DNA of 20,258 nucleotides from a virus (IMGVR_UViG_3300037070_008288:1-20258), one strand, 5' to 3'; shown: positions 1 to 19,041, counted from the first letter of the stretch. Notes: a model not told the origin generated them from the letters alone. Program-made: numbers and translations.

Positions 1-132
1 TTGGACCGTCGACCTAGTAAACTCTTCATAGATGTCCGTGTTGAATGCTTGGTTCTCAAATGTCAATGTATTGAGAGTCCACTCACTCTGTAAGTGACCT
101 TCAATCAGTTTCTGGGCACCAGAAAAGATCAT
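1..132 (-). CDS. Tail terminator protein, N-terminal part (cut by window edge)
   Basis: Only the first 44 codons are present; the gene runs off the left edge. The peptide has the N-terminal pattern of siphophage tail terminator proteins: a short helix (AQKLIEGHL), then W-T-L-N-T-L-T-F-E-N and a beta strand. Such proteins cap the finished tail tube and join it to the head. Its ATG overlaps the stop of the preceding gene as ATGA, so translation is probably coupled. Position after the neck and closure genes is where a tail terminator is expected. Assignment rests on a short fragment plus gene order. Confidence 0.6.
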   Translation of the reverse strand, partial: MIFSGAQKLIEGHLQSEWTLNTLTFENQAFNTDIYEEFTRSTVQ

Positions 133-506
133 TTTCTTACAGAAGCACTCGCTACAGAAAGAGCAAGTACGCCGGTGGGCGCTTGCATGGAATAACCATT
201 TTCGATGCGCAAAGCATATGGCTGACTATTTGATATATAAACCATATCACCAAGCCTATATCCCTTCGGCCAATAAAACACCGGACGTGGCAATGGTGCT
301 TCGGGTGCGCCTCCCGTCGTGGTGGATTCATCAGGTTCTCTGAATCCTATTCGCCAGCTCGCACGAAAAGATCCAGTGTAAACCGGAGACCGGTTCACCG
401 CCCCAAAGAAAACATCCCTGACGTAAGATCGTACCGCAGTTTCAGTTACTTGTTCGAACTCTTTATGATCTAGCCAGCGTCGAACGTTTACTGTGACCTT
501 AAGCAC
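129..506 (-). CDS. Neck / tail-completion protein, HK97 gp10-like
   Basis: 125 aa. It has the hallmarks of the HK97-gp10 / minor tail family that links the head connector to the tail: an N-terminal helix, the segment SPVYTGSFRASWRI (about residues 39-52), then VYISNSQPYALRIENG (about 89-104) and a C-terminal strand. The start is GTG and lies inside the end of the upstream gene (8-bp overlap). No strong ribosome site is visible, so coupling is likely. It sits between the head-closure gene and the tail terminator, as in other siphophages. Confidence 0.65.
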   Translation of the reverse strand: MLKVTVNVRRWLDHKEFEQVTETAVRSYVRDVFFGAVNRSPVYTGSFRASWRIGFREPDESTTTGGAPEAPLPRPVFYWPKGYRLGDMVYISNSQPYALRIENGYSMQAPTGVLALSVASASVRK

Positions 507-873
507 TCAAGGGCCTTGCTTGCACCGTGGAAAATCCTATTTCAGAGCCGACGTATTGTGGCTTGCTTCGCATGATACGATATTGCAAGCCATTTACGGT
601 GAGTGTATCATTCAGCTTTGGAATAGGACTGCCATCCTGGTGGAAGACCATGATCTTTGCATCTGATGCTAGATCACGATCTGCTTCGATCTCCCTCTGA
701 TTAAAGGTGGTAACCACCACCTTAACATCAAAAACCCTGGTTGTGTACACCGTGGCCCCGCCGGGTGCATATACAGTGGGCGTACGCTCTTGATGCCTAC
801 CCACCACCGCTAAATCTTCAATGGCCTGTACAGCAACCTTAACCGCATCTAGCACAGTAGCCTTGAGAGCCAT
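499..873 (-). CDS. Head closure (stopper) protein
   Basis: 124 aa, predicted beta-rich after a short N-terminal helix. The pattern LNDTLTVNGLQYRIMRSKPQY followed by a closing strand resembles phage head-closure/stopper proteins, which seal the portal after packaging and form the docking face for the tail. Its ATG overlaps the stop of the adaptor gene by one base (TAATG). Family membership is inferred from size, fold pattern and order: adaptor, closure, neck, tail terminator. Confidence 0.55.
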   Translation of the reverse strand: MALKATVLDAVKVAVQAIEDLAVVGRHQERTPTVYAPGGATVYTTRVFDVKVVVTTFNQREIEADRDLASDAKIMVFHQDGSPIPKLNDTLTVNGLQYRIMRSKPQYVGSEIGFSTVQARPLSA

Positions 874-1418
874 TACGCCCTCACAAGACTAATGTTCTTG
901 GCCATCCCAGATGTTGGAACGCTCGGTGCCTCGATCTCACCAAATCCGTTTATGATTGCAGCAATCTTGTCAGGCACATATATCTTGCTTTGATTAGCTT
1001 TCTCATTGAAATTAACTCTTATCTCACCAACCTCAACTTCATCAATCAACGCGTTACCAGCCAGAGGCGTGTTATCACCTATGGTCTGCAGCCACAGAGC
1101 TTCCTCGATCGTGGCGTGCTTGATCTCCCAAGGTATTTCATCCTGAGGAATTGGATATGAGTCACGATAAACCTGATACCGTGGCCATTCCAAAGCTTGC
1201 TGTTGATTGGTGCGCTCGCCCTGCCAGCAGAAGTACCAGTCAAGCTGACGAGTGGCCTGGATCAGGAGACGAGACTTATCGTCCGTATCCAGATCCAGCC
1301 ACACATCGCGTGCTGCTTCATCAAGAACATAGATATTGACGTAGTCAGCCGCCTCAGCTACGGTAACGTAGCTGTTAGAGGTTAGCCCACCGGGCGTAGC
1401 ATCAACGACGATGGCCAC
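873..1418 (-). CDS. Head-tail adaptor, DnaT-like connector family
   Basis: 181 aa, GTG start preceded by GAGG five bases upstream. The N-terminus SNSYVTVAEAADYVNIY (about 14-30), then the helix around DDKSRLLIQATRQLDW, and ALEWPRYQVYRDSYPIP (about 75-91) match the all-helical connector proteins often annotated as DnaT-like. They bind under the portal as the first adaptor ring. It directly follows the capsid gene and precedes the closure protein, which supports the role. The C-terminal 60 residues are less typical. Confidence 0.65.
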   Translation of the reverse strand: MAIVVDATPGGLTSNSYVTVAEAADYVNIYVLDEAARDVWLDLDTDDKSRLLIQATRQLDWYFCWQGERTNQQQALEWPRYQVYRDSYPIPQDEIPWEIKHATIEEALWLQTIGDNTPLAGNALIDEVEVGEIRVNFNEKANQSKIYVPDKIAAIINGFGEIEAPSVPTSGMAKNISLVRA

Positions 1419-1427
1419 GTCAGCCTC

Positions 1428-2360
1428 TTACGTGAACTTGACGTTCGTTGCCCTTGCAATCCCAAGCTGGCTGTACACTGCCAGACCTGCGTAGAAGCGC
1501 AGACGAGTAATGGTATTGTTCGTGCCTTCAGCCTCGCCCAGCTCCGTGACAAAGATACCGGAGTTGTTGGAGCTGGTCAGGCCAGCGATCCCAATCATCC
1601 TGGATCCGTCGTCCCAGACACCGGCGTAGATGTCACCGACCTTGGTCGGAGAACCAGTAACATCGACCCAGTCATTGCGGAACATCGGAATCCCACGATA
1701 TCCAGGAACCGAGCCACCACCAGGCAGTGCTATGGTTTCAGTGATGTTGGCGCCGCCGAGAGTTCTCAGTTGACTGAAGTACTTGCGAATGGCCGCATCA
1801 GGCATCATGAAAAAATCGACCTGACCATCCTTGGACTTGATCATGGAAATCAGCTCATCCAGCATGTCCAGAGACAGGGTGGTTGAGCCAAAGCTCTTGG
1901 TCTGTGCAGCGGGAACGAGCTTCTCCAAACCATCGAACTGCTTCGGGTTGGAGGTAGCATCGCCATTGATGAACAGGTCCTGGTACTGACGCGCCAGGCC
2001 TTTGGCCTTGGATGCAACTTGGATCGCCCGCTGATCATTGGGCGTGGTCATCGTGGTCTGAACGAAGTGATCAACGTACGCATCACCGAGCATGACCTTC
2101 AACGCACTGGTCACTGGGGTGAACGTGGCTGGCGTCTTGGCCTGAGCGGTGATCACGTTGACCGTGTCATCACCACCGATACCAATCACGTCAACGCCGC
2201 CAATGGCGTTTTCCCGATTGTACTCAATGGCATTTCCCACGATCTGATCGAAGGGCATGACATTGTAAACTTGGTTGACGGTGACAATCGTTTCGATGAC
2301 ACCAGCAACGAGGGGGTTGTTCTGAAGCTTTGCTGCTTCAGCTAAGGTAACAGAGGGCAT
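1428..2360 (-). CDS. Major capsid protein
   Basis: 310 aa, the main shell subunit. The N-terminus MPSVTLAEAAKLQNNPL, the central run with NGDATSNPKQFDGLEKL (about 154-170), FFMMPDAAIRKYFSQL, and the C-terminal end with RLRFYAGLAVYSQLGIARA are characteristic of HK97-fold capsid proteins of the roughly 300-residue class. No large N-terminal delta domain is evident, and a separate scaffold gene lies just upstream. The ATG has a good AGGAG site five bases upstream. The gene has its own promoter and a structured 5' leader within the 156-bp gap upstream, which fits the very high expression a capsid protein needs. Confidence 0.85.
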   Translation of the reverse strand: MPSVTLAEAAKLQNNPLVAGVIETIVTVNQVYNVMPFDQIVGNAIEYNRENAIGGVDVIGIGGDDTVNVITAQAKTPATFTPVTSALKVMLGDAYVDHFVQTTMTTPNDQRAIQVASKAKGLARQYQDLFINGDATSNPKQFDGLEKLVPAAQTKSFGSTTLSLDMLDELISMIKSKDGQVDFFMMPDAAIRKYFSQLRTLGGANITETIALPGGGSVPGYRGIPMFRNDWVDVTGSPTKVGDIYAGVWDDGSRMIGIAGLTSSNNSGIFVTELGEAEGTNNTITRLRFYAGLAVYSQLGIARATNVKFT

Positions 2361-2435
2361 CTGAGCTCCTGGAAGTTAACGGACTACGTCAACCTCCACC
2401 GGAGGCCCAAGCACACGCTGCATGCTCAGACAATG

Positions 2436-2474
2436 GGGTGTTGGCACCTATGCGCAGCATAGGCGCCAACATCC
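2436..2474 (-). promoter_or_regulatory. 5'-terminal stem-loop in the capsid mRNA leader
   Basis: On the minus strand an 18-bp arm starting GGATGTTGGCGCC pairs with a downstream arm around a 3-base loop (TGC), with one G-T pair and one mismatch. It begins almost exactly where transcription from the adjacent promoter should start (about 2472). No T-run follows it, so it is not an intrinsic terminator. A hairpin at the very 5' end is a known way to protect mRNA from 5'-dependent decay; that role here is inferred. Confidence 0.65.
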
Positions 2475-2478
2475 TTTA

Positions 2479-2507
2479 ATTATACACCAAATGCAAAGGT
2501 ATGTACA
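2479..2507 (-). promoter_or_regulatory. Promoter of the capsid gene, TGTACA-17-TATAAT
   Basis: The minus strand has TGTACA (2507-2502), a 17-base spacer and a perfect TATAAT (2484-2479). The -35 continues upstream into a 20-base block, CCTAATCAAAACGGTGTACA, that recurs with one change at 18999-19018 on the plus strand. The block overlaps the scaffold stop codon. Confidence 0.75.
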
Positions 2508-2516
2508 CCGTTTTGA

Positions 2517-3251
2517 TTAGGGCCCAATTGGGCCTCCCATGCGCGGGGCCAGACCTGCGTTCAAGCCAGCAGCGATCTTCTCCACTGGAGTCATATTAGG
2601 CTTCATACCCGGACCACCGCCACGTGCGCCCGGCGCACCAGAACCAGTGAATCCTGCAAAGAGGTGAGGAGCTGTGTTCTTCAGCTGCTTGGTCCAAGAA
2701 TCAATGGAGACGGGCGATGTGCCGTCCTCACCATAGACCACCTCGCCCTTCTCATTCTTCATGACAGGCCGACCATCCTGGATCGAAAACGCGGTCTTCG
2801 CACGAAGCACAATGTCATCGATCGCAGTGGAGAGGATGCCATGTGTAACCGCAGAAGACTTCACCGCATTATCAATGAGCAAGGTCTCCAGCTGGCGATT
2901 AGCAACCTTGAGCTGCTCATCACGAGTCTGAACCTCTCTATCATACTGAGATCTCATTAGCTGGACGCGCTCAGCGATAACCTCATCGACCTTGCCCGCC
3001 TCAATGAGCTGCTTCTCACGGACCTTGCGATCTGTCTCCATCAGCTCAGCGTACTTCTTCGGATCAAGATCCTTGAACGCTTCCATCTTCTTCATGAGGT
3101 CGACGTTGGTCTGCCGAAACTCATTTAGCTTGCTCTTGTCTGTAGCTCCATCAGCATCAAGGACGAATGAACCATCCTCACGCTTAACGTAGAACGGACG
3201 AACAGCTTCACCTACCTCATTCAAATCACTAACTGTGTACTTCAGAGCCAT
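2517..3251 (-). CDS. Capsid scaffolding protein
   Basis: 244 aa, highly charged and mostly helical, with a long central coiled-coil region (about residues 35-130) rich in K, E, Q and R. A low-complexity Gly/Pro/Ala/Met tail follows (about 200-244, GSGAPGARGGGPGMKP). This composition and the place between portal and capsid are typical of phage scaffolding proteins, which direct shell assembly and are then lost from the procapsid. The ATG has GGAGG five bases upstream. No protease motif was recognised, so how the scaffold is removed is not evident. The end of the gene carries the palindrome GGCCCAATTGGGCC next to the capsid promoter block. Confidence 0.75.
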   Translation of the reverse strand: MALKYTVSDLNEVGEAVRPFYVKREDGSFVLDADGATDKSKLNEFRQTNVDLMKKMEAFKDLDPKKYAELMETDRKVREKQLIEAGKVDEVIAERVQLMRSQYDREVQTRDEQLKVANRQLETLLIDNAVKSSAVTHGILSTAIDDIVLRAKTAFSIQDGRPVMKNEKGEVVYGEDGTSPVSIDSWTKQLKNTAPHLFAGFTGSGAPGARGGGPGMKPNMTPVEKIAAGLNAGLAPRMGGPIGP

Positions 3252-3263
3252 GGGATCCTCCCA

Positions 3264-4643
3264 TTATTGTGGTTGCGGTTTAGCTGGGGCTGGTGCTGCC
3301 GGTATTGGTTTTTTGAGGTCAGCAATCTGTACCGGCGTCAGAATACCTTCGAGCTGCTGATCGTCTGGAATAGTCGGATCAAGATACTCCGACCGCTTGA
3401 GGTTGTAAACCAACGTTGCCTTGTCAATCTCACCATTGAGGTATGCCGTAAAGAGCTCACGAAGCACCGCAGCTTCAAGGCGGATGGTGAGAAAGTCCTT
3501 GTTAAGAGATATCGACGGTGGCGGCACGTCCATCACCTTGGCCAACGTCGAGTAAGTCATATTCAGCCCAGTCTCAGTGGAGAGCACGAGCTGCTTGAGC
3601 GATGCGGTCTCACTCATGTAACGCAGACGAACTGTCTCAGCGGCCTCTGAACCCTTGCTAGATGAGTCCACCAGCCTAGCGCTCATTGATGCCATGAGCC
3701 CGATCTTCTCCTTGAGAGCGTTCTCAAGTGAGCCCAGGCCCTGGCCGAGAAATTCTAGATACTTTGCATCTGAACCCTCATTGGGCAGCACCCACGCAGC
3801 TGTGCCACCAATCTTGAGACTGGTACTGGAATCTGCACCGATGATGACCGGTGTCGGCAGACCGACGAAGTGACGGCCCCACTCCAGATCAGCACTGGTC
3901 ATGTAGTGGGATATGTTGATCGTAGCGATGTCCAGCATCGGTGGCTTGTCAACGGGCATGTGCACGCCGGACGTGCCAAAGCAGGTAAATGGTACGTAGT
4001 TGATGCTCCGCCCGCGAAAGAGCGGTGTCATCGCGGACGTGATGTTAAGATCATCATCCAGCAGCTGCACGGTATAAGCACCGCCCACCAAGCCGCACCA
4101 GCGGTACTGCACCTGAGGCCGATAGAAGAATCGCTTCTGTGCATCTGGAACATAGATGGTTTCTCTGAGCAGCACCCACTCCAATGATCCATCAGCGTAC
4201 ACACCCCAGTTGATGATGTGCTCAGCATCATAGGTCACGAGGATGGGCTCGCTGGCTCCACTGACTGGGGCATCGACCAAAGTTCCAATCCGCCCCATCA
4301 GGATCACCTCCTGGAGGCACCTGATATAAAACTCAGTAAACTGGTATGACTCAACGCCATCAGTGAAGTACGGTTTCAGCGTATCATCGTACTCCGTCTC
4401 AGGGTCCTTGGAGGTGGTGAACCCAACCAGCGTGGCTACGGTCTTGCTCGTGATTGGAAAGAACAGTGCACGACGCTTGTAATTATCATAGTCACCAGTC
4501 TCTTGACCACCTAGCGAAGGGAGGTAGAGAGTGCCCGCGGTCTTGATCGCCTTTGACCCGTTGAAGCAATCACGGATCATTCGGTACTCCTCCTGAATGT
4601 TGATGTATTCAGGGTGAGCAAACTCACTTAGCTGCTTGGCCAT
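3264..4643 (-). CDS. Portal protein (DUF4055-like)
   Basis: 459 aa. It forms the ring at one capsid vertex through which the terminase pumps DNA. The N-terminal region around YKRRALFFPITSKTVATLVG (about 56-75), the acidic and helical middle and the long helical stem near LGSLENALKEKIGLMASMSA (about 303-322) match portals of the DUF4055 type. The Pro-rich C-terminus (PIPAAPAPAKPQPQ) is short and flexible. I chose the ATG at 4643, with AAGGA seven bases upstream and one base after the terminase stop. A longer reading from 4676 would overlap the terminase by 32 bp. Order terminase, portal, scaffold, capsid is standard. Confidence 0.8.
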   Translation of the reverse strand: MAKQLSEFAHPEYINIQEEYRMIRDCFNGSKAIKTAGTLYLPSLGGQETGDYDNYKRRALFFPITSKTVATLVGFTTSKDPETEYDDTLKPYFTDGVESYQFTEFYIRCLQEVILMGRIGTLVDAPVSGASEPILVTYDAEHIINWGVYADGSLEWVLLRETIYVPDAQKRFFYRPQVQYRWCGLVGGAYTVQLLDDDLNITSAMTPLFRGRSINYVPFTCFGTSGVHMPVDKPPMLDIATINISHYMTSADLEWGRHFVGLPTPVIIGADSSTSLKIGGTAAWVLPNEGSDAKYLEFLGQGLGSLENALKEKIGLMASMSARLVDSSSKGSEAAETVRLRYMSETASLKQLVLSTETGLNMTYSTLAKVMDVPPPSISLNKDFLTIRLEAAVLRELFTAYLNGEIDKATLVYNLKRSEYLDPTIPDDQQLEGILTPVQIADLKKPIPAAPAPAKPQPQ

Positions 4644-14464: not shown

Positions 14465-14800
14465 TCATTCCTGGTCCAGCGGGACCAGCTCTGACTGGTT
14501 CGTTATCAGCGGAACCTCCGCCACAACGCGGCCATCCTCAACGTCAATATCCTCGAACAGTGTAACCACCACTCTACGGAGATCACTGATTTCCGCTTTG
14601 ACCTCGACTGAACTAAGCTTGGGCTGGACATAGGGCAAGATCGCTTGGTGCACTGCGAGCTCCAACCGGGGATCACAAGTGACATCCTTCTTATGTGCTA
14701 AGCGCGCGAGCGCTATGAGCGGGTGGTACTCAGGGTACTCCCTCTGGACGAGCGCGAGCGCCATCTCCGCTGGAGCACGCTCTTCGACTACTCGGTACAT
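14465..14800 (-). CDS. Small-terminase-like protein
   Basis: 111 aa, mostly helical. The segment YPEYHPLIALARLAHKKD (about 22-39), then LELAVHQAILPYVQPKLSSVEV (about 46-67), matches a phage family with helix, ...HPL..LA.LA..., and the Q/H-K/x-x-x-x-Y-x-x-P-K-L-x-x-V-E signature often annotated as terminase small subunit or DNA-packaging protein. It would select phage DNA for the large subunit. It is the first gene of the long minus-strand operon, directly behind a promoter. The ATG falls at the predicted +1, so the mRNA may be leaderless; a later ATG (codon 13) has GGAG directly adjacent but too close to be ideal. Confidence 0.5.
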   Translation of the reverse strand: MYRVVEERAPAEMALALVQREYPEYHPLIALARLAHKKDVTCDPRLELAVHQAILPYVQPKLSSVEVKAEISDLRRVVVTLFEDIDVEDGRVVAEVPLITNQSELVPLDQE

Positions 14801-14807
14801 CCCTAGG

Positions 14808-14836
14808 ATTGTACTATACCCGATAAGGATTGTACA
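14808..14836 (-). promoter_or_regulatory. Promoter of the structural operon, TGTACA-17-TACAAT
   Basis: On the minus strand TGTACA (14836-14831) is followed after 17 bases by TACAAT (14813-14808). The upstream block CCTACCAAACCCGTGTACA (14849-14831) resembles the block at the capsid promoter (about 15 of 19 positions allowing one gap). Predicted start of transcription coincides with the ATG of the small-terminase-like gene. Confidence 0.6.
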
Positions 14837-14937
14837 CGGGTTTGGTAGGGGTCCCCGGATGACTTACGGCTCCCGGAAAGCTAAAAAGGCACTTTTTTGA
14901 TAATTTTATGTGTTTTTATGGCTTTTTGATGATTTTT

Positions 14938-15012: not shown

Positions 15013-15246
15013 CCCGATGCGCACTAGAAAATCTGGAAATGACTTTTTTGCTCAAAATGCCAACTAGACAGCCCCCCCGAGCGTGGCCAGCTAAGGGCCC
15101 CCCAAATCCTTCATTTAATCGTAATAAATCGTTACATATAGATACAAATCGATACATAATTGAAACAATCTTGATACAATAAACATATATAATGGTTTTG
15201 TTGAATGATTGTATGTAAGATTTACAAAGACAAGAGATAGTGATAA

Positions 15247-15265
15247 GAGAATGACAATCATTATC
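15247..15265 (+). promoter_or_regulatory. Fur-box-like sequence
   Basis: GAGAATGACAATCATTATC agrees with the classical 19-bp Fur box GATAATGATAATCATTATC at 17 of 19 positions. It lies just upstream of the first operator of regulator A. Binding by an iron-responsive Fur repressor is a prediction from the match alone. Confidence 0.45.
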
Positions 15266-15282
15266 ATTAGGGAAGGAATCGA

Positions 15283-15299
15283 TACACATTACAAGTGTA
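15283..15299 (+). promoter_or_regulatory. Upstream operator of regulator A, TACAC-N7-GTGTA
   Basis: TACAC and GTGTA form an inverted repeat with a 7-base spacer (ATTACAA), and the spacer edges extend to a nested ATTACA-AG-TGTAAT palindrome. Its centre is 26 bp upstream of the second operator. The equivalent position upstream of regulator B is degenerate. Confidence 0.55.
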
Positions 15300-15308
15300 A
15301 TAATTCGT

Positions 15309-15325
15309 TACACTTTATTTGTGTA
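15309..15325 (+). promoter_or_regulatory. Promoter-proximal operator of regulator A
   Basis: TACAC-TTTATTT-GTGTA overlaps the -35 hexamer of the promoter. The same site with spacer TTTTCTT is at regulator B. Overlap with the -35 suggests repression or a switch, by inference autoregulation by the helix-turn-helix protein encoded downstream. Confidence 0.6.
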
Positions 15326-15350
15326 CAAATAAATCAATTTAGTTTAATAT
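15322..15350 (+). promoter_or_regulatory. Promoter of regulator A, TGTACA-17-TAATAT
   Basis: TGTACA is separated by 17 bases from TAATAT, a weaker -10 (4 of 6 matches). The predicted +1 is near 15357. Confidence 0.55.
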
Positions 15351-15355
15351 CTTTT

Positions 15356-15385
15356 TATACAAACTTAATTCTCTCGGTTTGTATA
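15356..15385 (+). promoter_or_regulatory. 5' stem-loop in the regulator A leader
   Basis: TATACAAAC and GTTTGTATA pair perfectly over 9 bp, beginning at the predicted +1. The 12-base loop contains TTCTCTC, which is complementary to GAGAGAA at 15399-15405 just before the ribosome site. A pseudoknot or alternative pairing that modulates translation is therefore possible. Confidence 0.55.
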
Positions 15386-15423
15386 AGTGTTTAAGTAAGA
15401 GAGAAACTTTTGGAGATAGTAAA

Positions 15424-15726
15424 ATGTCAACGAAACCCGAAGTTCAAGTTGTAACGATCGAAATGTTCGAAGAGTTGAAGGCAAGAGTAGCAAAGCTCGA
15501 AGAACAAGCATCGAAGAGCAGGGGAACAGCATCGACGAGGGAAATGACGGACGACGATGCGAAACGGGTCCTCAACGGCGATCTCAAAGAAAAGTCGCAC
15601 AAAGTTGCGGCGGAAACCCTGGGATTGTCCTACGGACAAGTTTATTCGGCGCGCGGCGAATACACTTTCAAACATGTTTTGAAAGCGCTAAAAGCCGAAG
15701 GTTGGAAAAACGGCTGGGTGAAGTAA
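15424..15726 (+). CDS. Coiled-coil / helix-turn-helix regulator, copy A
   Basis: 100 aa; no named family recognised. Residues 13-33 form a short coiled coil (EMFEELKARVAKLEEQ). Residues 40-95 form a compact domain starting REMTDDDAKRVLNGD, with a helix-turn-helix-like core HKVAAETLGLSYGQVYSAR (59-77), the A-A-x-x-L-G-L-S-x-x-x-V-Y spacing being typical of DNA-reading helices. Likely a small oligomeric DNA-binding regulator. The last 81 residues are 93% identical to copy B, yet only about a third of the codons agree. The ATG has GGAG eight bases upstream. It is monocistronic, with paired operators before it and a terminator after it. Confidence 0.75.
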   Translation: MSTKPEVQVVTIEMFEELKARVAKLEEQASKSRGTASTREMTDDDAKRVLNGDLKEKSHKVAAETLGLSYGQVYSARGEYTFKHVLKALKAEGWKNGWVK

Positions 15727-15733
15727 GAAAGTC

Positions 15734-15761
15734 GGGCGGGAAGAAATTCCCGCCCTTTTTT
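15734..15761 (+). terminator. Intrinsic terminator after regulator A
   Basis: GGGCGGGAA and TTCCCGCCC form a perfect 9-bp stem closed by a GAAA tetraloop, followed by six T. It starts seven bases after the stop codon. Confidence 0.9.
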
Positions 15762-15782
15762 CCCTACCACACGGAGATCGAA

Positions 15783-15896
15783 ATGTACACGAATCATTCG
15801 CACATCAAAGACTACAAGACGCGGATGCAAGTCATCTGGTCGAAGACCATGCTGCACTACACCGGCGGCAACGCTTTCCGGCTGGTGAAAGCATGA
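15783..15896 (+). CDS. Micro-protein, 37 aa, unknown
   Basis: Starts at an ATG with GGAG six bases upstream. The protein is basic and aromatic (HSHIKDYKTRMQVIW, HYTGGNAFRLVKA), without a membrane segment or known motif. It is the first of three overlapping micro-genes, its stop overlapping the next ATG. It lies directly behind the strong terminator of regulator A with no clear promoter, so expression would need read-through, antitermination or an unseen start. Ribosome site and tight coupling are the main evidence for its being real. Confidence 0.5.
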   Translation: MYTNHSHIKDYKTRMQVIWSKTMLHYTGGNAFRLVKA

Positions 15897-15997
15897 ACGA
15901 CAACGCCCTTCGCGCGACGCGCCTCGTTTGCCTGACGATCTTCCTGGTCGCCTGCCTCATGTACGTCCAGGACTACATCGCGTGGTGCCCCAAGTGA
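15893..15997 (+). CDS. Small membrane protein, 34 aa
   Basis: Start ATG overlaps the previous stop (ATGA). The peptide has a basic N-terminus (RATR) followed by one hydrophobic helix, LVCLTIFLVACLMYV (residues 11-25), and a short polar tail, so it should be an inner-membrane micro-protein. The next gene starts inside its stop codon. The pair of single-helix proteins could belong to a lysis, exclusion or signalling function; no family was recognised. Confidence 0.5.
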   Translation: MNDNALRATRLVCLTIFLVACLMYVQDYIAWCPK

Positions 15998-16086
15998 CCG
16001 CAGAGCTCATAGTGGTCATCGGCCAGGTGTGCACGATCGGCGGCGTCTTCATCGGGTACGCCCTCGATAAACTTCTCAAACGCTAG
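15994..16086 (+). CDS. Small membrane protein, 30 aa, GTG start
   Basis: GTG start overlaps the preceding TGA (GTGA). One hydrophobic stretch (LIVVIGQVCTIGGVFIGYAL) spans nearly the whole peptide and is followed by a basic end, DKLLKR, suggesting N-out/C-in insertion. The gene is followed within six bases by a perfect terminator, so it closes the micro-operon. Function unknown. Confidence 0.45.
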   Translation: MTAELIVVIGQVCTIGGVFIGYALDKLLKR

Positions 16087-16091
16087 CCAGC

Positions 16092-16117
16092 GGGCGCCTT
16101 CGGGCGCCCCCTTTTTT
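16092..16117 (+). terminator. Intrinsic terminator after the micro-operon
   Basis: GGGCGCC-TTCG-GGCGCCC, a 7-bp GC stem with a stable TTCG loop, then CC and six T. The same 18-base hairpin follows regulator B. Confidence 0.9.
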
Positions 16118-16125
16118 CGGCCCTC

Positions 16126-16242
16126 GCCCCAGATGGCGAGGCGCGTGGCCGTCAGCCTGTCTCCCACCCCCCCAGCCCCCCTCCGCGCGGGCGCAGCCCC
16201 GTCAGCCTGGCAACGGGGGCCTGCCCCAGATGGCGAGGCGCG
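16126..16242. repeat. GC-rich spacer with two repeat families
   Basis: GCCCCAGATGGCGAGGCGCG occurs identically at 16126-16145 and 16223-16242. CCGTCAGCCTG occurs at 16149-16159 and 16199-16209. Both families recur on the far side of regulator B. The spacer has C-runs and no credible gene, and its composition is far more GC-rich than the flanking promoter. Confidence 0.75.
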
Positions 16243-16273
16243 CTGCCCACGCATTACAATTGAAATACTTCGT

Positions 16274-16290
16274 TACACTTTTCTTGTGTA
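16274..16290 (+). promoter_or_regulatory. Operator of regulator B, TACAC-N7-GTGTA
   Basis: TACAC-TTTTCTT-GTGTA overlaps the -35. It is the core of a 41-bp element (16253-16293) that agrees with 15288-15328 upstream of regulator A at 36 positions. Confidence 0.65.
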
Positions 16291-16316
16291 CAAGGGTAAC
16301 AATGATGATGTACTAT
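16287..16316 (+). promoter_or_regulatory. Promoter of regulator B, TGTACA-18-TACTAT
   Basis: TGTACA is followed after 18 bases by TACTAT (4 of 6 consensus matches). Predicted +1 near 16323, at the base of the leader hairpin. Confidence 0.5.
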
Positions 16317-16320
16317 TCTT

Positions 16321-16344
16321 ATGTGCGTTAATTAAGACGCACAT
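16321..16344 (+). promoter_or_regulatory. 5' stem-loop in the regulator B leader
   Basis: ATGTGCGT and ACGCACAT pair perfectly over 8 bp around TAATTAAG. It sits at the predicted mRNA 5' end and stops six bases before AGGAG. Same place as in regulator A, but unrelated sequence. Confidence 0.6.
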
Positions 16345-16360
16345 TTAAAGGAGATAGGAA

Positions 16361-16654
16361 ATGGCGAAGATTGAGATTGGTTTTGAGGATTTCCAGGCCC
16401 TGGTTGCTCGGGTTGCGAAGCTCGAGGAGCAGGCGGCGAAGAGCCGGGGCATTGCGAGCACCCGGGAGATGACCGATGAGGACGCCAAGCGGGTTCTCAA
16501 TGGGGATCTGAAGGAAAAGAGCCACAAGGTGGCCGCGGAGATCCTCGGGTTGTCCTACGGGCAAGTTTACTCGGCCCGCGGGGAATACACCTTCAAGCAC
16601 GTTCTGAAGGCCCTCAAGGCGGAGGGCTGGAAGAACGCTTGGGCGAAGGCCTAA
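16361..16654 (+). CDS. Coiled-coil / helix-turn-helix regulator, copy B
   Basis: 97 aa, close paralogue of copy A: coiled coil at about residues 8-30, then REMTDEDAKRVLNGD and the helix-turn-helix-like HKVAAEILGLSYGQVYSAR (56-74). Only six of 81 aligned residues differ from A (S/A, T/I, D/E, T/I, G/A, V/A), but 54 of 81 codons differ. By hand count only about 13 of these codons end in A or T, against about 36 in A. The N-terminal residues before the coiled coil are unrelated. ATG has AGGAG seven bases upstream within a leader sequence like that of A (GGAGATAG). Own promoter, operator and terminator make it a self-contained cassette. Confidence 0.75.
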   Translation: MAKIEIGFEDFQALVARVAKLEEQAAKSRGIASTREMTDEDAKRVLNGDLKEKSHKVAAEILGLSYGQVYSARGEYTFKHVLKALKAEGWKNAWAKA

Positions 16655-16661
16655 GCACTGG

Positions 16662-16685
16662 GGGCGCCTTCGGGCGCCCTTTTTT
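16662..16685 (+). terminator. Intrinsic terminator after regulator B
   Basis: GGGCGCC-TTCG-GGCGCCC followed by six T, eight bases after the stop; identical in stem and loop to the terminator of the preceding micro-operon. Confidence 0.9.
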
Positions 16686-16741
16686 ACGTCCCTGATCCCC
16701 TGTGGGTCATCTCCTCCGTCCCCCTGCCCCTGGGAGCATGC

Positions 16742-16824
16742 CCGTCAGCCCCAGATGGTGAGGCGCCTCGCTCGAAGCGCATTTCCTCCGTTCCCAGGCC
16801 CCGGGGCGCACTGCCGTCAGCCTG
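16742..16824. repeat. Second GC-rich spacer with the same repeat families
   Basis: GCCCCAGATGGTGAGGCGCC (16748-16767) differs from the copies left of regulator B at two positions. CCGTCAGCC (16742-16750) and CCGTCAGCCTG (16814-16824) match the second family. Regulator B is thus bracketed by direct repeats. Confidence 0.7.
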
Positions 16825-16841
16825 CTGGGCACAAAAATGAC

Positions 16842-16863
16842 AAAAAAAGCGCCCGAAGGCGCT
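16842..16863 (-). terminator. Intrinsic terminator after regulator C
   Basis: On the minus strand AGCGCC-TTCG-GGCGCT is followed by a run of T (16848-16842), about 12 bases after the stop of regulator C. It uses the same TTCG-loop design as the two plus-strand terminators and faces them. Confidence 0.88.
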
Positions 16864-16875
16864 ATTTCCGATGAT

Positions 16876-17319
16876 CTACGTGCGCCGTTTCCAAGGCGAG
16901 CGCCATCCAGACTCTTCGAGCAGGCGGTGAATTGGCTTGAATGTGTAGCACATGCGACAACTGTAAACTTGGGCGTAGGTAAGCCCCAACATCGTGGCGG
17001 CCTCACGATGATTCAAATCCTTGTAATCCCCGTTAAGGACCTTGAGAGCGTCCTCGCGAGTCATCTCACGAATGAGGGCTGAGGATCGGTTCTTGTTGAC
17101 AATCCTCGAATTATCTCGCTCCTCGAGGACTCTAATACGCTCCAGGAGATCTTTTTGGGTCTTTTCCAGTTGATGTATCTTCTGCAGTCCCTGAACATAC
17201 GCGGATAGGCCCTCGTGCAAAGGCCTAACCATCTCCTCCAGATCTTTTTGATTCTTCTCGATGTGTGCCAGACGGGATGCCATTAGCGGCCCCCAAACTG
17301 TCTCGTCCATGTCAGACAT
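16876..17319 (-). CDS. Coiled-coil / helix-turn-helix regulator, copy C
   Basis: 147 aa, more distant paralogue of A and B. Residues about 15-70 form a longer coiled coil (LAHIEKNQKDLEEM, LEKTQKDLLERIRVLEER). Residues 84-140 repeat the shared domain: REMTREDALKVLNGDY, then the helix-turn-helix-like NHREAATMLGLTYAQVYSCR. About 32 of 62 residues agree with A. The C-terminus is strongly basic (WRSPWKRRT). Invariant among all three are REMT, D-A, VLNGD, H, AA, LGL, Y, QVYS, R, YTFK and the final G-W. It is the last gene of the operon transcribed from 18578, overlaps the preceding gene by 8 bp and ends at a strong terminator. Probable DNA-binding regulator under different control from A and B. Confidence 0.7.
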   Translation of the reverse strand: MSDMDETVWGPLMASRLAHIEKNQKDLEEMVRPLHEGLSAYVQGLQKIHQLEKTQKDLLERIRVLEERDNSRIVNKNRSSALIREMTREDALKVLNGDYKDLNHREAATMLGLTYAQVYSCRMCYTFKPIHRLLEESGWRSPWKRRT

Positions 17320-18548: not shown

Positions 18549-18578
18549 ATTATACACCGTCCTTGCGCTCCATGTACA
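18549..18578 (-). promoter_or_regulatory. Promoter of the small-gene operon, TGTACA-18-TATAAT
   Basis: TGTACA (18578-18573), 18-base spacer, perfect TATAAT (18554-18549). Unlike the capsid promoter it has no CCTAATCAAAA block upstream and no TACAC-N7-GTGTA operator. Confidence 0.65.
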
Positions 18579-18692
18579 TAAATTCATTCACAATTTTCTA
18601 TGCTCCTACGATCAAAGTTTCATCGGTATGTGCTGCCCACCCATACCCAGAGTTGCCACCGACTGCCACCCGGCCCGGGCAGCCCGTCGCCT

Positions 18693-18910
18693 CTTAAGTT
18701 ATTAATTTTATTAAACTTTTAGGTGTAGCCACTTTACGTCCCCCGAATACGACCGGCTTTAGGAATAACAAAATTATTAAATTATTAATGGCGCTGGTTC
18801 TCTGGTTGTGTATTATGGGAAAATTCCTCCTTATTTTTCCTATTAATAATATAAATTCTATGGATAAAAAGGGCTTATACCTAAATATTTAATAAAATTA
18901 ATAACTTAAG
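18693..18910. repeat. 218-bp AT-rich segment bounded by 35-bp inverted repeats
   Basis: Arm 18693-18727 begins CTTAAGTTATTAATTTTATT and pairs with 18876-18910, which ends AATAAAATTAATAACTTAAG. The outer 23 bp match perfectly and the full 35 bp at 32 positions. Inside, TTATTAATGG near 18781-18790 and CCTATTAATAA near 18839 give further imperfect pairing, and GGGAAAAT/ATTTTTCC near 18818-18841 forms an inner hairpin. No transposase and no flanking target duplication are visible. Confidence 0.75.
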
Positions 18911-18976
18911 TGTTAGTAAGATCGCCCATTTACGTTCACCTCCGATGTGGTTGAAATGATCATTGTGGGCCAGGCA

Positions 18977-19004
18977 TAAAATTAGGCCTTATGTAAGGCC
19001 TAAT
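18977..19004 (-). terminator. Weak hairpin terminator of the 20258-19043 cluster
   Basis: ATTAGGCCTTA and TAAGGCCTAAT form a perfect 11-bp inverted repeat with two central bases. On the minus strand it is followed by TTTA, a short T-run, about 40 bases past the last stop codon. The hairpin also touches the upstream end of the plus-strand promoter. Confidence 0.5.
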
Positions 19005-19012
19005 CAAAAAGG

Positions 19013-19041
19013 TGTACAAACAGAGAAATCCACGTTATAAT
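19013..19041 (+). promoter_or_regulatory. Plus-strand promoter facing a minus-strand gene cluster, TGTACA-17-TATAAT
   Basis: TGTACA, 17-base spacer and perfect TATAAT. The 20 bases ending in the -35 (18999-19018) match the capsid promoter block at 19 of 20 positions. The predicted start, near 19048, lies inside the last codons of the minus-strand gene 19043-19537, and no plus-strand gene follows, so the transcript would be antisense. Confidence 0.65.

Follow-up and report, generated by a model that had tools for sequence, protein, structure and literature searches.

We analyzed a virus record of 20,258 bases (here called the window), the left part of which is a leftward structural module encoding the major capsid protein, the portal, and the large terminase. 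The structural operon opens with a separate conserved small gene (14465-14800; Xp15 gp03). To the right of this module lie, on the plus strand, the genes of two small proteins, A and B, and farther right, on the minus strand and convergent with B, the gene of a third protein, C, which is the final gene of a leftward operon (Table 1). An original prediction had proposed these three open reading frames with their strands, their location in a regulatory zone, and the position of C at the end of a convergent operon, and all of this is borne out.

Table 1. Genes and regulatory features around A, B, and C, with positions counted from the first base of the window
Feature	Position	Strand	Details
Protein A	15424-15726	+	100 aa; coiled-coil helix (residues 12-32) and four-helix domain with helix-turn-helix (59-66/70-77)
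Protein B	16361-16654	+	97 aa; sister paralogue of A
Protein C	16876-17319	-	147 aa; predicted 75-residue helix (6-80) and same domain as A
Promoter of A	15321-15350	+	GTGTACA (-35), TAATAT (-10), 17-bp spacer
Promoter of B	16286-16316	+	GTGTACA (-35), TACTAT (-10), 18-bp spacer
Promoter of divergent structural operon	14808-14837	-	GTGTACA-N17-TACAAT
Promoter of operon ending with C	18549-18578	-	TGTACA-N18-TATAAT
Promoter of major capsid gene	2479-2508	-	CTAATCAAAACGGTGTACA-N17-TATAAT; same class
Repeat pair upstream of A promoter	15288-15312	+	ATTACA and GTTACA, 19 bp apart
Repeat pair upstream of B promoter	16253-16277	+	ATTACA and GTTACA, 19 bp apart; layout as for A
Repeat array	15131-15178	+	GTTACA-GATACA-GATACA-GAAACA-GATACA, steps of 10, 10, 11, and 11 bp
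5' leader hairpin of A mRNA	15354-15387	+	11- to 12-bp stem
5' leader hairpin of B mRNA	16321-16344	+	z -4.3
Intrinsic terminator after A	15734-15761	+	
Intrinsic terminator after B	16660-16685	+	
Intrinsic terminator after C	16842-16863	-	

A search of the whole record with A matched exactly three places (E-values 3e-64, 1e-49, and 2e-20, the last with 49% identity over 80 residues), confirming that the three proteins are paralogues, and the motifs said to be common to them are present. A and B, thought to be about 93% identical over 81 residues, agree at 76 of the 83 residues (92%) of their shared stretch. The terminal G-W holds for the window's own clade but is not a feature of the whole family. 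Across the same stretch the DNA of A and B is only 74% identical, with 49 synonymous versus 7 non-synonymous codon differences; because dN is 0.075 and dS is saturated, the codon pattern indicates that both are real genes under purifying selection. Their base composition differs strongly (GC3 is 0.55 in A and 0.80 in B), so they may have been brought together by recombination between related phages rather than by simple local duplication. As near-copies, A and B may be partly redundant. In the family tree, which was built on 59 columns only and does not resolve the deep forks, A and B are sisters (98/94) and C groups with the G001 and L005 proteins (95/93); by this measure C appears to belong to an older subfamily than the A/B pair.

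The DNA next to A and B has features of its own. Three tiny open reading frames of about 37, 34, and 30 codons lie between the two genes (15784-16086, plus strand) and are followed by a terminator (16092-16116); the last two look membrane associated by eye. B is flanked by GC-rich non-coding stretches (16120-16245 and 16715-16830) with repeated CCCAGATGG(C/T)GAGGCGC and CCGTCAGCCTG-like pieces.

About 30 distinct homologues came out of scans of annotated phages and of viral contigs, all from one lineage of siphoviruses of roughly 45 to 60 kb that includes Xanthomonas phage Xp15, Acinetobacter phages Effie, HHU4, and MD-2021a, and IMG/VR contigs. Judged by sequence, the family reaches beyond this phage, which corrects the original prediction, since Xp15 gp02 and the Acinetobacter phage proteins, 'hypothetical' in GenBank, are members. 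The domain profile (MT..DA..V..GD-SHK.AA..LGLSYGQVYS.R..TFK) is matched by A, B, and C, and each of the 11 genomes examined carries at least one copy of the gene. In the annotated phage collection exactly five records have it (Xp15, Effie, HHU4, and two of MD-2021a), and the same five are the best matches to the window's portal and the sole full-length matches to the Xp15 primase-polymerase; hence, the family gene is tied to one phage lineage. The homologues of these phages (Xp15 gp02, YP_239270; Effie gp50; those of HHU4 and MD-2021a) are 44 to 51% identical and occupy the same divergent position; they are single copy, were deposited as hypothetical, and no C-type partner was found for them. 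A-type genes diverge from the terminase/structural operon at the same position in the window, Xp15, Effie, and MD-2021a. At least two copies occur in the window and in G001, G003, L005/L063, L007, L028, L065, and L066. L028 is a 49-kb contig of a cellular genome (an Acidimicrobiia MAG) with two copies and may be a phage contig. Orthologues of C are present in G001, L005/L063, L065, and L066, and an A-type gene converges with a C-type gene in the window, L063, L065, and L066. No further contigs came up when the Effie protein, or C alone, served as the query. In the Effie record (MW176033.1) the family gene is found twice, exactly 50,000 bases apart, so that the record has a repeated end of about 3.6 kb (1-3598 and 50001-53598), which is a long terminal repeat or else an artefact of assembly.

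What kind of protein is this? The original prediction of a coiled-coil and helix-turn-helix family without a name agrees with both the AlphaFold2 models and the family-wide search. The model of A, computed from an alignment of 21 sequences, has an overall pLDDT of 84 and of 92 to 95 in the four-helix domain; an N-terminal coiled-coil helix of 21 residues (12-32) precedes helices 43-51, 59-66, 70-77, and 83-91. In the model of C (pLDDT 91) the single helix 6-80 is followed by the same domain. The recognition-helix residues, SYGQVYS.R, are nearly invariant across the family. No helix-turn-helix model scored above its curated cut-off in any member. Below the cut-offs, weak matches were found to Sigma70_r4_2 (PF08281; 9 of 21 members, with 12.5 bits for A, 14.9 for B, and at best 24.2 for L020 against a cut-off of 25.7), to the NUMOD-like model (14 of 21), and to HTH_23 (8 of 21), and in many members these matches coincide on the same residues.

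A, B, and C match no named family: searches of Pfam, PHROGs, and NCBIfam with the family proteins gave nothing above cut-off, and a PDB sequence search returned only chance coiled-coil matches. No HNH or GIY-YIG nuclease domain matched in family proteins of 100 to 147 aa. Foldseek detected no solved structure in the PDB with a significant E-value, and its weak top matches were mostly helix-turn-helix proteins; sigma region 4, resolvases, and KorA were among them. In the comparison with viral models, Xp15 gp02 was the significant match (E-value 6e-6). The likeness to sigma-70 region 4 (PF08281) and to the NUMOD-like helix-turn-helix of phage HNH endonucleases (PF22083) lies in the helix-turn-helix core, on the same residues. 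Unlike proteins of those two families, A, B, and C have neither a nuclease nor sigma region 2, begin with the coiled coil, and stay below the curated cut-offs.

The upstream DNA supports the prediction that A and B each have an operator-like element and a promoter of their own. The same -35/operator element, TTACACTTTNNNNGTGTACAA, precedes A (15308) and B (16273), and the window contains no further copy, even if 3 mismatches are allowed (0.01 expected); each promoter has GTGTACA at -35. Nowhere in the window are WTACA sites denser than in the repeat array farther upstream of A. Upstream of 29 family genes, an unbiased count of 6-mers gave TGTACA 19 times (2.5 expected), GTGTAC 15 times (1.5), and GTTACA 15 times (2.4), and TTACA pairs 10 bp apart were seen 6 times (0.0), counts that are inflated and not fully independent because the genomes are related. 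In the 10.6 kb that lie upstream of A-type genes we counted TTACA-N5-TTACA 7 times, versus 21 times in the other 602 kb (500 shuffles gave a mean of 0.018 and at most 1). TTACA-N7-10-GTGTAC is found, in the window and in G003, solely before the two family genes of each; G003 has GTTACA-N4-GTTACA-N8-GTGTACA before both copies and nowhere else, and in G006 four TTACR sites follow one another with a spacing of exactly 10 bp. Clear phased TTACA pairs are present in only about 10 of the 29 A-type upstream regions. Those of G004, L013, and L007 have neither TTACA pairs nor GTGTAC, and that of Xp15 lacks GTGTAC and has TTAACA repeats 11 bp apart instead. Dense CATATGATATGATATC repeats lie in the same divergent intergenic zone of the Xp15 record (1199-1300; L026, L029).

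GTGTACA is part of a wider pattern, a promoter type of the lineage in which it occupies the -35 position and TATAAT the -10 position. Promoters of this class precede A, B, the structural operon, the capsid gene, and the C operon in the window. When the hexamers found 16 to 18 nt before a -10-like box were counted without bias, GTGTAC/TGTACA ranked first or nearly first in most family genomes, with 4 observed versus 0.12 expected in the window, 7 versus 0.08 in G001, 8 versus 0.16 in G003, 6 versus 0.10 in G005, 5 versus 0.15 in Xp15, and 7 versus 0.66 in Effie; TTGACA is almost absent at that position. G004 has no GTGTAC promoters, G002 uses mainly TTGTAC, and G006 also has GTTTAC. Four phages without the family, including Acinetobacter phage AP22, have no GTGTAC promoter class. 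TGTACA sites are mostly -35 elements of a lineage-wide class, so that A, B, or C binding to them, as the original prediction envisaged, is one possibility among others. The original prediction had also named TACAC-N7-GTGTA sites; as a single palindromic operator we rejected this sequence, because GTGTACA recurs at the -35 position of other genes where the TTACAC half is missing. Only the A and B promoters have the TTACA part, and the GTGTACA part is shared with other phage genes. A further GTGTACA-N17-TATAAT promoter, at 19013 within an AT-rich, apparently non-coding stretch of 450 bp (18580-19030), points right into a region coded on the other strand and is a possible start of an antisense or small RNA.

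We think it fairly probable that A, B, and C are lineage-specific small phage transcription factors that act autoregulatorily at the junction of early and late genes. A self-regulating factor fits because an oligomerizing helix is combined with a near-invariant recognition helix and with phased repeats in the protein's own promoter, where specific sites are found in that TTACACTTTNNNNGTGTACAA stands only before A and B and phased repeats are enriched before A-type genes. The family, its predicted fold, its position, the repeats, and the promoter class are computed results, and from them we infer DNA binding and the pairing of protein and site. The N-terminal coiled coil would join the subunits into dimers, or into larger oligomers, and TTACA-type half-sites would be read by the helix-turn-helix at the C-terminus. 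On A-type promoters such sites are spaced by 10 or 19 bp and share one face of the DNA; they overlap the GTGTACA -35 element or lie immediately upstream of it, and a protein bound there would most likely set its own level, with a sign of regulation that we also infer. Acting from the intergenic DNA where the structural operon and the A gene diverge, it could influence the switch to structural gene expression, a role that is plausible because the A-type gene sits between divergent blocks. C, encoded in the convergent operon with a promoter of the same class, might provide a second input through the same domain.

The alternative that survives best, itself unlikely, is that the family determines promoter specificity: the sigma-region-4-like domain would bind GTGTACA instead of sigma region 4, or alongside it, and so direct host RNA polymerase to all GTGTACA promoters of the phage. 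The enrichment of GTGTAC/TGTACA before the -10 box, the near absence of TTGACA, the lack of the class in the four phages without the family, and the nearest domain matches, which are to sigma region 4, all point this way. However, GTGTACA at -35 is an association only, G004 keeps the same recognition helix yet has no GTGTAC promoters, and early-gene promoters use the box before a phage protein could exist, unless it is injected. Moreover, an equally good candidate is the small gp82-like protein (L035:48718-49227, which is Xp15 gp82; homologues in G001 to G006, Effie, and HHU4), which is present in all nine near-complete genomes and most divergent in G004. Its profile (motif GTTVGK..DIRKGRNFAYV) matches the family helix-turn-helix in register with modest significance (probability 36%, E-value 4e-4), and on this similarity it is a possible distant paralogue and regulator; no copy turned up in the window, possibly an incomplete record. 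Rather improbable, in our judgment, is a stronger form in which the family, acting perhaps alongside the gp82-like protein, would be a novel type of sigma-appropriation factor: two sigma-region-4-like helix-turn-helices, dimerized by the coiled coil, would replace -35 recognition. If true, the whole lineage would be transcribed from GTGTACA instead of TTGACA promoters.

Readings as an origin-binding or a DNA-coating protein are less likely. We give little credence to the first, in which the AT-rich zone of phased repeats would be a replication origin and the protein, as an iteron-binding factor, its initiator or organizer. The zone at 15100-15420 is AT-rich, with five phased RWTACA sites 130 to 190 bp from the A promoter, and the same zone of Xp15 has dense TGATATGA repeats. 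However, the repeats are usually right at promoters, the GC-rich region upstream of B has only the promoter-proximal pair, the GC-skew minima of Xp15, Effie, and HHU4 are about 3 kb away, and the primase/polymerase and helicase are encoded elsewhere. GC skew was discarded as an origin marker, because it follows transcription direction and is uninformative. An abundant DNA-coating or packaging accessory (nucleoid-like or small-terminase-like) in place of a specific regulator is very improbable: terminase small subunits also contain a coiled coil and a helix-turn-helix, and 5' hairpins like that of the major capsid mRNA suggest stable, abundant transcripts, but the first small gene of the structural operon is positionally the more natural small terminase, A-type genes lie on the opposite strand and not as first packaging gene or next to the large subunit, and the site pattern is local, not genome-wide.

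An autoregulatory helix-turn-helix factor, the reading we prefer, would be of a known kind for a phage; the family, the paired arrangement, and the promoter class appear undescribed. Phage T4 MotA is a middle promoter activator, and the family would work alike if it acted with host sigma-70 on a box that substitutes for the -35 element; MotA is unrelated in sequence and fold as far as known, and no AsiA counterpart was identified. Plasmid proteins of the KfrA type are longer and have an N-terminal DNA-binding domain. The family helix-turn-helix is C-terminal, no sequence match with KfrA was found, and the analogy is one of architecture only: KfrA of plasmid RA3 is an alpha-helical coiled-coil DNA-binding protein that oligomerizes (PMC7783346).

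We found no description of the family in the curated families searched or in the literature, covered mainly by titles and abstracts; by title or abstract, no paper containing GTGTAC dealt with phage promoters of this kind, literature on phage Effie was not found, and the sources searched, at that level, describe no transcription control in the Xp15/Acinetobacter phage lineage. The regulator family, its likely sites, and the promoter class provide a testable map of gene timing in these phages, and the promoter class would aid operon annotation in them. The pairing of A with C and the duplication of A and B raise the question of why a phage keeps several copies of one regulator.

The leader hairpins and terminators ascribed to A and B were also found. 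The overall folding energy is ordinary for the A leader (z -0.45) and significant for the B leader. Among 26 family leaders, 15 start with a stem 6 bp long or longer (1.8 expected from shuffling), and hairpins are also seen at certain other promoters of this class, that of the capsid gene among them. A shared sequence in the hairpins was considered and rejected: the stems differ between phages, and only the place is kept. Because the stems differ and promoters such as that of the capsid gene share the feature, the hairpins are probably mRNA-stabilizing or protected ends, not the protein's site. A scan of the window with Rfam found nothing.

The major capsid leader (2361-2474, minus strand) is very stable and folds into three hairpins (-63 kcal/mol, z -6.5). 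A CUCC-GGU-GGAG or CCUC-GGU-GAGG hairpin, with two compensatory pairs, precedes the capsid gene in the window and six relatives, and in G001, G002, and G007 pairing is possible between the 5' half of this hairpin and the CCGGAG of the ribosome binding site; this leader is a possible translational switch for the capsid gene.
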